Source: Carnobacterium inhibens subsp. inhibens DSM 13024 (GTDB taxonomy: Bacteria; Bacillota; Bacilli; Lactobacillales; Carnobacteriaceae). From it: DNA of 64,000 nt. Both the position numbers and the translations under genes were made by a program. The stretch covers positions 1,912,501 through 1,976,500 of the forward strand of contig NZ_JQIV01000006.1 of NCBI RefSeq assembly GCF_000746825.1, given 5' to 3'. A model generated the notes under the pieces. It worked only from the letters and a program-made list of their open reading frames with translations. It was not told the origin of the DNA and searched no databases. The stretch's first letter is position 1, and each line of letters begins with the position of its first letter. Below, one piece after another: positions 44,733-56,672 of this stretch.

Positions 44733-47375
44733 TTAAAAAGGTTTGTTCATCTTATTCATAATAAATTTTTGAAGTTCGCCTACTACAATAATAGCCAACG
44801 ATAATCCAATAGCAATCATCCAGTGAGTCGTACTTAAAGCAACTAATTCAAAAATACCAGCTAGGAATGGAACTGTAGCTACTAATGTAATCAGTGCAAT
44901 AGAAAGTAGTGCTAACCAGAATAAACTAGAGTTGGACGTAAGACCAACTTTAAAAATCGACTCTTTACTGCGTGCATTGAAAATATGCAAGACAGAAGAC
45001 CAACCAAGAATTAAGAAAGCCATTGTTTGACCAACTGCATGACTTGCGGTAATGGAAGAATCAACATCAATAAATGAACCAACATAAAATCCGATGAGTG
45101 TCGTAACTGTGAAAGTGAGAGCTGCGATAGCAATGTTACGATATCCGCCTTTAGCGAAGATGCTTTCACCTTTAGCAGTTGGTTCATTAGACATAATAGT
45201 TGGATCAGCTTTTTCTCTGCTTAATGCAAAACCAGGAATTCCATCCGCTACTACATTAACAAATAGTAATTGAATCGCAATAACAGGTAATCCCCATCCC
45301 ATAATGACAGCAATTAACATAATGAAAATTTCTGAAATATTACATGATAATAAGAAGTATACGGTTTTTTTGATGTTTTCATAAACACGTCTGCCTTCTT
45401 CAACAGCATGAACAATGGTATCAAATTTGTCATCGGTTAAAATCATGTCAGAAGCACTTTTAGCTACTTCAGTACCAGTAATTCCCATGGCAGTACCAAC
45501 ATCAGCCGCTTTTAAGGCAGGTGCATCATTGACACCGTCTCCGGTCATGGCGACAACATCCCCATGTGATTGCCATGCTTTAACGATTCGAATTTTATCT
45601 TCGGGAGAAACACGTGCATAAACGGAATAATCACGAATCGTTTCTTTTAGTTTTTTGTCTGAAAGGTTGCCTAATTCAGCACCTGTGATAGCTTTGTCGC
45701 CTTCTTCGAAAATACCGATTTGTTTAGCAATAGCAGAAGCAGTAGCAGCGTGATCTCCTGTGATCATAATCGTCTTGATACCAGCTGATTTGGCTTCTTT
45801 AACAGCTTGAATACTTTCTTCTCTTGGTGGATCGATCATTCCTACGATCCCAGCGAACGTAATGCCGCTTTCTAACTCTTCAGGGGATAGATCCTCTGGA
45901 AGTTGATCGTATTTTTTATATCCAACAGCTATAACACGTAAAGCATCATTCGCAAATGAATCATGGATAGCTTTCGCTTTTTGACCAACTTCATCTGTAA
46001 TTGAAGAAAATTCAACTGGCAAACGGTCAAAAGCACCCTTAGTGATTGAAATGTACCCATCTTCTAATTCGTGAACAGTAGTCATCAATTTACGACCAGA
46101 GTCAAAAGGAATCTCGTGTACACGTGGATAAGTTTCATCTAGCTCGTTCTTTGGCAATCCTTTTTTCTGTAACAAGCGAATAATGGCTGTTTCAGTAGGG
46201 TCACCGCTGATAACTTCTTCGCCATCACGATCTTCAATTGTAGCATTTGAAGCTAGGCTCATCATTTTGAGTACCCATTTTTCATCTTCGCCAAATTCAT
46301 TTTTAACTTCAATGGGTTTATGTGGAAAAGCCCATAATTTTTGTATCGTCATTTGGTTTTGAGTTAATGTGCCGGTTTTATCTGAAGCGATAACAGAAGC
46401 ACTGCCTAGTGTTTCGACGGAAGGGATAGTTCGAATAATGGCGTTACGGTCAACCATGTTTTGAACACCGTAAGCTAGTGAGATCGTAACAATAACGGGT
46501 AAAGTTTCAGGAACTGCAGCAACAGCAAGAGATACAGCAGTCATTAGACTTGTAATAAAAGCTTCACCTTGAAAGAAACTTAAGGTGAAAATAATAATAC
46601 CTGCCACTAGAGCTAACACACTTACTTGTTTTCCTAAACGATCCATTCTTGATTGTAAGGGTGTTTTACCTTGTTTAGTACTATTTAATAAGTTAGCAAC
46701 AGAACCCATTTCGGTATCCATACCTGTAGTGACGACAATTGCTTTTGCTCGTCCATTAGTAACCAAAGTTCCCGAAAAAACAGTATTAAATACATCTCCA
46801 ACTGGGCTGTCTTCTTCAACTTCTGCATTTTCGTCTTTTTCAACGGGCACACTTTCTCCAGTCAAAGCCGATTCTTCTACTTGTAAATCACTACTAGAAA
46901 TTAAACGAGCATCTGCAGGAATTTGATCTCCGGCTTCTAATAATAAAATATCTCCAGGGACCAAATCAGCTGCTTCAATAACCTCTTCTTGGTCATTTCG
47001 TATCACTCGTGCTTGTGGAGCAGATAAACTTTGTAGCGAAGCTAAAGCTTTTTCGGCTTTGCCTTCTTGTCGGATAGCAATGATGACGTTGATTAAAATA
47101 ATAGAGAAAATTACGATAGGTTCTGAGAAATCGTCGGGGTGTTCAGTGATGGCAATATAAGTTGAGATAATTCCAGCTAGGATCAAGATAATAACTGTAA
47201 CATCTTTTAATTGATCAATAACTTTTGAAAATAAAGAAATACTTTCTTCTTCATCAAATTGGTTGGCACCAAATTGTTTTTTATGCTGTTCTACTTCTTT
47301 TGAGGTTAACCCTTTTTCTGAGTTACTATTGAACTGGTTTACAATAGATTCTATTTTTTTTGTTCTGAATTCCAT
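44733..47375 (-). CDS. P-type cation-transporting ATPase, P2A (calcium pump) type
   Basis: The 880-residue pump has the P2 layout: N-terminal cation-ATPase domain, actuator motif SALTGESVPVEK, TM4 with VAAVPETLPVIVTI, phosphorylation site SDKTGTLTQNQ (Asp about 330), hinge TMITGDHAATA and MTGDGVNDAPALK, and a long C-terminal membrane part. It is close to SERCA-like calcium pumps of Listeria (LMCA1) and lactic acid bacteria. TM4 reads PETLP where LMCA1 and SERCA have PEGLP; the metal-binding Glu is kept. Calcium efflux is therefore the best guess; manganese is an alternative. AGGAGG precedes the ATG and a consensus promoter lies at 47446-47475. Confidence 0.88.
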   Translation of the reverse strand: MEFRTKKIESIVNQFNSNSEKGLTSKEVEQHKKQFGANQFDEEESISLFSKVIDQLKDVTVIILILAGIISTYIAITEHPDDFSEPIVIFSIILINVIIAIRQEGKAEKALASLQSLSAPQARVIRNDQEEVIEAADLVPGDILLLEAGDQIPADARLISSSDLQVEESALTGESVPVEKDENAEVEEDSPVGDVFNTVFSGTLVTNGRAKAIVVTTGMDTEMGSVANLLNSTKQGKTPLQSRMDRLGKQVSVLALVAGIIIFTLSFFQGEAFITSLMTAVSLAVAAVPETLPVIVTISLAYGVQNMVDRNAIIRTIPSVETLGSASVIASDKTGTLTQNQMTIQKLWAFPHKPIEVKNEFGEDEKWVLKMMSLASNATIEDRDGEEVISGDPTETAIIRLLQKKGLPKNELDETYPRVHEIPFDSGRKLMTTVHELEDGYISITKGAFDRLPVEFSSITDEVGQKAKAIHDSFANDALRVIAVGYKKYDQLPEDLSPEELESGITFAGIVGMIDPPREESIQAVKEAKSAGIKTIMITGDHAATASAIAKQIGIFEEGDKAITGAELGNLSDKKLKETIRDYSVYARVSPEDKIRIVKAWQSHGDVVAMTGDGVNDAPALKAADVGTAMGITGTEVAKSASDMILTDDKFDTIVHAVEEGRRVYENIKKTVYFLLSCNISEIFIMLIAVIMGWGLPVIAIQLLFVNVVADGIPGFALSREKADPTIMSNEPTAKGESIFAKGGYRNIAIAALTFTVTTLIGFYVGSFIDVDSSITASHAVGQTMAFLILGWSSVLHIFNARSKESIFKVGLTSNSSLFWLALLSIALITLVATVPFLAGIFELVALSTTHWMIAIGLSLAIIVVGELQKFIMNKMNKPF

Positions 47376-47475: not shown

Positions 47476-47556
47476 GTTGTAAGCTTGATAAAAGACAGCA
47501 GTGGCGTGAGAAAAGACAAAATTAAGTAAAATAAAAGAAAAATTTAAATAAATAAT

Positions 47557-47648
47557 AAAAAAACCACCCATTAGAAAAATGGGTGGTAAAGGAGTCATTA
47601 CCTTTGCTTTGAGGAGAAAAGGTAATATGAAAATATAAAAAGTTGGTT
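47557..47648 (-). ncRNA. Candidate small RNA B with CU-rich loop and terminator
   Basis: On the minus strand a 9-bp perfect stem (ATTACCTTT with AAAGGTAAT) encloses the 12-base loop TCTCCTCAAAGC. Then come the linker GACTCCTTT and a 10-bp perfect terminator stem (ACCACCCATT with AATGGGTGGT) with seven T. A TATACC sits about 92 bases upstream of the T run as a possible -10; no good -35 is seen. There is no gene between this terminator and candidate A, so it is not explained as a gene terminator. Loop and linker can pair with Shine-Dalgarno sequences. The layout resembles csRNA/LhrC-type regulators; expression is unproven. Confidence 0.5.
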
Positions 47649-47761
47649 GTTATTGGTATAGATAAACTATAACGTTAATCTATGAAGAAAATGTGATGAT
47701 AGTTTTATGATTTTCTTAAAAAGTGTATTTTTAAAGAAGGCTATTTTGATGTTTCTAAAAT

Positions 47762-47856
47762 AAAAAAAGCTATCTCAATTAAGAGATAGCTAGGGGGTAA
47801 GACTCTTTTCAATAGGGGGAGAAAAGAGAGTGAAAAATAAATTCAGTTTTAAATAA
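47762..47856 (-). ncRNA. Candidate small RNA A with CCCCC loop and terminator
   Basis: On the minus strand an 8-bp perfect stem (CTCTTTTC with GAAAAGAG) encloses the loop TCCCCCTATT. Then come a linker TCTTACCCCCT and a 9-bp perfect terminator stem (AGCTATCTC with GAGATAGCT) with seven T. A TATAAA (47863-47868) is a possible -10 about 100 bases upstream of the end. The architecture is the same as in candidate B, 110 bases further on. This one could also be read as the terminator of the DJ-1 gene with an extra hairpin. Confidence 0.5.
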
Positions 47857-47887
47857 ACAACTTTTATAGTTTACCACAGTCAACTAA

Positions 47888-47950: not shown

Positions 47951-48469
47951 TTACTTATCTAAAGCGGCTACGATTGCTTTATTGAAAGCTGGAAGATCAT
48001 CAGGTGTACGGCTGGAGATAATACCACTTTCGTCTTCCACAACTTCACTATCTTCAAATAACGCACCTGCATTTTTCAAATCAACTCCGACTTGTTTGAC
48101 AGCAGTCATTTTTTTACCCTTGACTACTTCAGCATTAATTAAAAGCTGAGGCCCATGGCAAATCGAAAAAATAGGTTTTTTTGCATCAGCAAAGGCCTTA
48201 GTGAAAGCTAAAAAGCGATCATCTGATCTTAATTGATCGGGTGAAAAACCACCAGGAATTAAAAGTGCGTCAAAATCTTCCGGTGAAACTTCATCAATGC
48301 CTTTATCAATAGTAATGGTAGCTTCTCCTTTTTTTCCTTTAACGGTATTGCCTGCTTTTTTCTCAATCGTAATAACTTGGTGTCCTGCATTTGTTAAAGC
48401 TTCTTTTGGCGATGTGAATTCAACATCTTCAAATAAATTGGTCACTACTGTTGCAATTTTCTTTCCCAT
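47951..48469 (-). CDS. DJ-1/PfpI family protein
   Basis: The 172-residue protein has the class I glutamine-amidotransferase-like fold of the DJ-1/PfpI family: DALLIPGGFSPDQLRSDDRF and the nucleophile elbow IFSICHGPQLLINAE (Cys about 105, followed by His). Relatives are general-stress proteins (Bacillus YfkM), proteases or glyoxalase III/deglycases that act on methylglyoxal and its adducts. It is divergent from the methylglyoxal synthase gene mgsA across about 170 bases, which supports a dicarbonyl-stress role (inference). The GGGATTA ribosome-binding site is weak to moderate. Confidence 0.88.
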   Translation of the reverse strand: MGKKIATVVTNLFEDVEFTSPKEALTNAGHQVITIEKKAGNTVKGKKGEATITIDKGIDEVSPEDFDALLIPGGFSPDQLRSDDRFLAFTKAFADAKKPIFSICHGPQLLINAEVVKGKKMTAVKQVGVDLKNAGALFEDSEVVEDESGIISSRTPDDLPAFNKAIVAALDK

Positions 48470-55782: not shown

Positions 55783-56089
55783 AAAAAGCGCTCGTCCATT
55801 AACCTACTGCTGTAGATTAAAGGACGAACGCTTTACCGTCGTGTTACCACCTTTATTTGAGTTGATCTCGCAAACAACTCCTTATCAAGTACGAGAAGAT
55901 TGCTTCTGATACTCTAGCACTGTAATGGGTGCGCCCATGATAGCCTAATGTTTAAAAACACTCGGTATCCCGCTCGGAGGCCATTTTCTCTTCATTCCTG
56001 CAAACCTGTTCTCAGCATTCAGGCTCTCTGTTGTTGCATTCTGTGAAAATACTTTTCTCTTCATTGCGTTTAATTATGTAGTTAATAAA
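55783..56089 (-). promoter_or_regulatory. T-box riboswitch A (methionine), next to metN
   Basis: This minus-strand leader has a Stem I with CAGAGAGCCTGAATGCTGAG and a specifier ATG at 55982-55984 (context AGAAAATGGCC). The T-box core GGTGGTAACACG lies at 55839-55851. The terminator arms AAAGCGTTCGTCC and GGACGAGCGCTTT (55785-55834) are followed by T. Uncharged tRNA-Met should favour the antiterminator and switch on metN. No own promoter with good consensus is seen between it and T-box B. Confidence 0.92.
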
Positions 56090-56435
56090 ATCAAAAAGTC
56101 CTTACAAAAAAGCAAATGAATTTGCTTTTTTGTAAGGACGAAAGTCAGTTGTCTGCTTCGTGTTACCACCTTAATTTATAAGTATATTGCTATACTTACC
56201 TTATCCAGTACGTCAGACAATAAGTTGTCTTTTTTATACTGTGACACTGTAACGGGTGCTCCCGTAGAAAGCTAACACTTTAATAAGTGATTCGCTAACT
56301 CCACTCAAAGACCATCTTCAGTTCAATTTGTCTAACCCATTTTCAGCAATTAACTGGGTTCTCTTTTATAGACGAATATAAACCTACTTTTCTTTTCATA
56401 GTGTTTTATCATTTTTTTATCATTAAACTTAACTT
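56090..56435 (-). promoter_or_regulatory. T-box riboswitch B (methionine), distal leader
   Basis: This second minus-strand leader has Stem I elements (AGAGAACCCAGTTAATTGCT), a specifier ATG at 56313-56315 (context GAAGATGGTC) and the T-box core GGTGGTAACACG at 56159-56170. Its terminator is a 19-bp perfect stem (56098-56116 with 56121-56139) followed by T. It is followed directly by T-box A, so the transcript must pass two methionine checkpoints. Confidence 0.92.
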
Positions 56436-56567: not shown

Positions 56568-56672
56568 AATCAGAGTAGGAAATAAAGCGTTAAGTGTCGT
56601 TGGGATGGGATGTTGCCCGCGAACGAAAAATTGTTTAGACAATTTGCGGTTTTGTTTCTGCATTCGCTGCAT
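56568..56672 (+). promoter_or_regulatory. Tetrahydrofolate (THF) riboswitch upstream of folT
   Basis: The leader carries the conserved THF-I motifs: GAGTAGGAAATAAAGCGTTAA at the 5' side broken as AGAGTAGG..GCGTTAAGTG, then GGGATGGGATGTTGCCC, and the closing GCATTCGCTGC at the 3' side. These match the folT-type THF aptamer consensus (GCGUUAAGUG, GGGAUG, GCAUCCGC). The AAAGGAG ribosome-binding site of folT lies about 30 bases downstream, so control is probably at translation. The aptamer is seen directly; ligand response is inferred from the family. Confidence 0.88.

Follow-up and report, generated by a model that had tools for sequence, protein, structure and literature searches.

The region considered here lies in a 64,000-nucleotide stretch of the Carnobacterium inhibens genome (the window), between a gene for a DJ-1/PfpI family protein upstream (47951..48469, minus strand; TIGR01382, 187.5 bits) and a gene for a P-type cation (Ca2+-type) ATPase downstream (44733..47375, minus strand). 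The intervening minus-strand sequence reads as two RNA modules, each built from a hairpin and an intrinsic terminator joined by a C-rich linker, which we call module A, nearer to the DJ-1 gene, and module B; the string CTTTTCTCC is present in both. A terminator scan of the region returned exactly two terminators, namely those of the two modules, where 0.7 would be expected, and neither fold was equalled by any of 200 dinucleotide shuffles (z of -6.35 for B and -5.21 for A). There is no plausible gene between the two terminators, and a 48-aa frame was discarded as a gene, as it starts inside module B and reads through the B terminator. The initial annotation had described the locus in much the same way, and its perfect first hairpins (8 bp in A, 9 bp in B), C-rich linkers, seven-T terminators, SD-complementary loops and linkers (SD, Shine-Dalgarno), common string and lack of an intervening gene all stand; only its module length of 92-95 bases needs revision, the likely transcripts being about 103 nt for B and about 100 nt for A. 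Elsewhere in the window, two tandem T-box leaders (55817-56408 and 56569-56671, minus strand) adjoin a plus-strand THF riboswitch.

Module B (47556..47658, minus strand; about 103 nt, a length taken from its Rfam match) is composed, in order, of an AC-rich 5' leader, a hairpin, a linker and a terminator. The hairpin (47597..47626) has a 9 bp stem formed by ATTACCTTT and AAAGGTAAT around the loop TCTCCTCAAAGC (47606-47617); the linker GACTCCTTT (47588..47596) is SD-complementary, with ACUCC(U) kept in most B relatives; and the terminator (47557..47587) has a 10 bp stem, a TTTTC loop and seven T. The sequences of both modules had been reported as unrecognised, which holds for module A, a member of no Rfam family, but not for module B, which matches Ref84 (RF02846, 'Enterococcus sRNA 84') over the full model length (1-87) with 62.9 bits against a gathering threshold of 52 bits; module A scores 22.7 bits against the same model, a weak similarity well below that threshold. 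A sub-threshold match of module B to the Burkholderia anti-hemB RNA family (47557-47625; 27 bits, threshold 49.5) likely reflects composition. An RNA-seq map describes two sRNAs of unknown function, sRNA_109 of E. faecalis and sRNA_093 of E. faecium, as similar to Ref84 (PMC7724050). The family shares with module B the AC-rich 5' leader UACCAAYAACAACC, a U-rich stretch, a hairpin, a ACUCCUUU linker and a terminator.

When the order was searched for Ref84, 100 of the 395 genomes, from 25 of the 80 genera, had a match, which lay above threshold in 55 genomes, and many genomes carried several copies. One locus (L054, G099:C1:1472000-1473300) holds four near-identical tandem Ref84-like sRNA genes, each with its own GTCATA-N5-CTCATA-N9-TAATAT promoter, while at another (L124, G003) the Ref84-like sRNA is preceded by two tandem boxes and also has TCCTCC in its terminator loop, which brings its anti-SD sites to three, the number in LhrC. 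The Carnobacterium inhibens genome itself contains a second Ref84-like copy (L002, C6:916446-916595), below the Rfam threshold, with a PieR-like box GTCACA-CTTTT-TTCATA, the loop ACTCCTCCAAAGT and the linker CCTTACCC. The DJ-1 gene is a recurring neighbour; at L126 (G005) a Ref84-like sRNA lies directly 5' of it, the reverse of the order seen here, where DJ-1 precedes the sRNAs.

The relatives fall into two versions of Ref84. Members from Carnobacteriaceae and several other families have UCCUCCAAA in the loop and ACUCC(U) in the linker, each of them SD-complementary, whereas the Enterococcus RNAs have a short hairpin loop without UCCUCC and, unlike module B, a promoter of ordinary look in which the TTCAYA repeat is absent. 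Outside Enterococcus the UCCUCC loop is conserved and the stem covaries: across 18 distinct B hairpins, a set whose rows were filtered beforehand for pairing, 92% of inner-stem cells are paired, against a mean of 73% and a maximum of 84% over 2000 shuffles, and 29 changes are double-sided, compared with 7. A set of 12 unfiltered hairpins chosen by promoter alone gave 80% against 67%, none of 2000 shuffles being as good, the outer pairs being weaker (52 of 2000 shuffles).

The promoter of module B (47697-47666, minus strand) reads ATCACA-TTTTC-TTCATA-N9-TATAGT, the paired hexamers occupying 47681..47697 and the -10, TATAGT, lying nine bases further on at 47666..47671. B promoters outside Enterococcus share this arrangement as a direct repeat, DTCAYA-N5-YTCAYA-N9 before the -10, in which the hexamers are spaced like OmpR-type sites, while the Enterococcus Ref84 promoters examined lack the box, so that control through it is not family-wide. 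The strict box without a -10 is not enriched in the Carnobacterium inhibens genome (8 matches against 10 for the control); it was the addition of N9 and the -10 that made the pattern specific, DTCAYA-N5-YTCAYA-N9-TANNNT yielding 50 matches in 18 Carnobacteriaceae genomes against 7 for the reversed control. Most of the 30 box loci retrieved precede either Ref84-like sRNAs, which was to be expected since the pattern was derived from them, or an ABC permease operon, which was not. This boxed operon is found in the Carnobacterium inhibens genome and several others, and in two genera it faces a response regulator/kinase gene pair in convergent orientation, the best NCBIfam model for the regulator being PieR (331 bits, below the curated cutoff of 450 bits but ahead of the next model at 216). 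In the Carnobacterium inhibens genome this PieRS-type pair occupies C6:888878-891000.

An independent check comes from the genus that carries LhrC. LhrC (RF00616) matches are confined to two genera of one family, which we take to be Listeriaceae, and the genus to be Listeria, as LhrC is a Listeria RNA. In ten genomes of this genus the same box pattern gave 34 matches against 3 for the control, and the genes that follow the box include one for a PrsA-type lipoprotein (prsA), an Lmo0881-like one whose 161-aa product has a signal sequence, and one for an ABC permease beside pieR. The PieRS regulon of L. monocytogenes comprises prsA1, prsA2, lmo0442, lmo0881 (with a signal peptide) and lmo1505-lmo1506, an ABC transporter and permease (PMC12234432), with which the boxed prsA-, lmo0881- and lmo1506-type genes agree. 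In this genus the boxed ABC operon has a neighbouring regulator with 60% identity to the PieR-like regulator of Carnobacterium, the other eight OmpR-type regulators of the Carnobacterium inhibens genome reaching at most 43%. We call the element the predicted PieR box because it matches PieRS regulon genes and because of this identity between the regulators; module B has in its promoter the box that precedes known members of the regulon, though the box is our own prediction and appears in none of the papers cited, the PieRS study describing no binding motif, promoter or sRNA (PMC12234432). At five loci of the LhrC-bearing genus (L169, L171, L176, L177 and L180) a predicted PieR box (32 bases, at about 1501) stands before a short transcript-like unit, followed by a NUDIX gene; the unit comprises CTCACCTGACAGCATCCG, a TCTCCC loop, a long perfect hairpin and a T-run, and is a candidate PieR-controlled sRNA, an Rfam search of L280 giving no match to it.

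Together these promoters point to the envelope-stress sensor PieRS as the likely switch of module B. Module B might instead be driven, with both modules still sRNAs, by another OmpR-type regulator, of the CroR/LisR, PhoP or WalR kind, to which the PieRS-adjacent ABC operon would also respond: the genome encodes nine OmpR-type regulators, hexamer-N5-hexamer repeats are common in this class, and in Listeria LhrC has a LisR-responsive element (PMC4132741). We regard this as quite unlikely, given that the box marks PieRS-adjacent genes in two distant lineages as well as published members of the PieRS regulon, that no strict box was found in the stretches around regulator genes, and that the pattern is absent from the LhrC promoters examined.

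Two established systems come close to the layout seen here. The csRNAs controlled by CiaRH in streptococci likewise place an unpaired SD-complementary stretch between two stem-loops, matched here by the linkers GACTCCTTT in B and TCTTACCCCCT in A, occur in several copies, and carry a direct-repeat response-regulator box just 5' of the -10, at a distance of 10 (PMC3091779) compared with 9 here; their repeat is nevertheless TTTAAG rather than of the TTCAYA type, and the module sequences differ. LhrC1-5 of Listeria (RF00616) resemble module B in their CU-rich loop and linker, terminator, tandem copies and control by an envelope-stress two-component system (predicted here), and also in the look of the AC-rich leader and of the ACUCCCUUUU linker. 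Their promoter element is different, a LisR-responsive element for which no LisR consensus is given (PMC4132741), and they have three redundant CU-rich sites, in the loop, the linker and the terminator loop, module B having two; the terminator loops of A and B are not CU-rich. The initial annotation had compared the pair with both systems, and while the likeness of architecture and promoter layout stands, membership does not, since TTTAAG-N5-TTTAAG is absent upstream of either module and the LhrC model has no match in the Carnobacterium inhibens genome. In our best model the circuit of module B resembles CiaRH-csRNA and LisRK-LhrC and belongs to neither.

Module A (about 47762..47861, minus strand) has an 8 bp hairpin, CTCTTTTC and GAAAAGAG around the loop TCCCCCTATT (47803..47828), the C-rich linker TCTTACCCCCT (47792..47802) and a terminator (47762..47791) with a 9 bp stem, a TTAATT loop and seven T. 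An extended -10, TGGTAAACT (47868..47876), with TGNTAWACT-like counterparts in relatives, would place its start near 47861, and the length of about 100 nt is measured from this -10. A covariance model (R1) finds module A in 13 of 18 Carnobacteriaceae genomes and, beyond Carnobacteriaceae, in Lacticigenium, and an exact-stem pattern search adds Atopococcus; further matches to the model in another family (f4) of the order proved on inspection to be B-type RNAs. Five terminator pairs are changed on both sides among 11 aligned loci. The hairpin stem is unchanged in all 11 and so offers no evidence of covariation, which means that the compensatory changes sought in the first hairpins of relatives are seen for B but not for A. 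An invariant stem would fit pairing of the 5' arm itself with targets, and we consider that the 5' arm and loop of A, CUCUUUUCUCCCCCUA, probably pair with targets directly, by analogy with LhrC4, where the 5' side of stem A pairs with the lapB target (PMC4132741). On this comparative evidence, module A is a conserved sRNA absent from Rfam and almost confined to Carnobacteriaceae.

Module A may be only the processed 3' end of the DJ-1 mRNA, its terminator region, the terminator of the module being the first after the DJ-1 stop codon, and DJ-1 being the upstream gene in several genera. This seems unlikely, as a conserved extended -10 stands some 7 nt before the conserved 5' region of A and the module is also present behind genes that cannot be recognised as DJ-1 (L005, L007); its own promoter and processing of the DJ-1 mRNA could also both contribute. 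As for its regulation, the best PieR-like site at the module A promoter scores 3.4, compared with 15.5-24.5 for the training boxes (p = 0.11), and a shared regulator acting on A through TTYACY-N5-NTCATR, scored in turn, was not significant in most loci. Simple duplication of one module was also rejected: A is no close copy of B, their promoters differ and A lacks a B-type box. A is a separate sRNA without a PieR-like site. The description of a tandem pair with a common layout is accordingly right about layout and not about duplication; in Desemzia the two modules are separated by 1.3-1.4 kb.

The region would then hold two small-RNA genes, a Ref84-family sRNA (B) and an independently transcribed one (A), both predicted to be expressed in Carnobacterium inhibens, a reading that is likely even when PieRS control and SD blocking are included in it. 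That the modules are ordinary terminators with promoter-proximal hairpins and no regulatory role is highly improbable: standard intrinsic terminators do end both, but family membership, cross-genus conservation, covariation and a specialised promoter all speak against it. In the two-gene model, envelope stress sensed by PieRS would lead the OmpR-type regulator PieR to bind the predicted site, ATCACA-N5-TTCATA, and activate transcription of module B from the -10 nine bases downstream. Module B would act in trans as a base-pairing RNA that exposes two anti-SD stretches, the hairpin loop and the ACUCC linker, to pair with ribosome-binding sites and lower the translation of selected mRNAs, probably for envelope or transport functions, and module A would be a second anti-SD sRNA with its own transcription. 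Observed here are the structures, their conservation, the place of B in Ref84 and the promoter box together with the other genes that carry it; to these the model adds expression in Carnobacterium inhibens, PieR binding and repression by SD pairing. The last of these we infer by analogy with LhrC, whose CU-rich loop binds the SD region of its targets (PMC5880928), and with the csRNAs (PMC3091779), on which both A and B should repress translation initiation. We consider the whole model, in which a PieRS-induced Ref84-type sRNA blocks translation initiation, to be reasonably probable.

A search for targets, as the initial annotation had proposed for the CU-rich loops against ribosome-binding sites, did not single any out, genome sites complementary to either loop being no commoner than control sites. 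Perfect 11 bp complementarity to the arm and loop of B is found, among other places, at a PTS EIIC gene (C6:589701) and an aldose-1-epimerase-like gene (C6:1341987), and the recurrence of PTS or sugar-transport and membrane-transport genes among the candidates is a lead only. Compared across genomes, the candidates are mostly not the same genes, and we therefore claim no specific target.

While the Ref84 family is already known, the predicted control by PieRS and the undescribed neighbouring module A are new; a search of a limited literature collection, in which absence is no proof of novelty, gave no paper linking Ref84 to PieRS or describing Carnobacterium sRNAs. Ref84 is widespread and without a known function or regulator, and the predicted PieR box suggests a concrete one, namely the envelope-stress system that controls PrsA, along with a testable expression condition for Ref84 and a candidate binding motif for PieR. 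On a view towards which we lean slightly, PieRS and its Ref84-type sRNA would form a further Gram-positive two-component/anti-SD circuit spanning several families of Lactobacillales, from which Enterococcus lost the UCCUCC loop along with the control while keeping the RNA, and to which Carnobacteriaceae added module A, a new conserved sRNA family for annotation. Such a circuit would be one more case of an envelope-stress two-component system with an added RNA arm for repressing translation.
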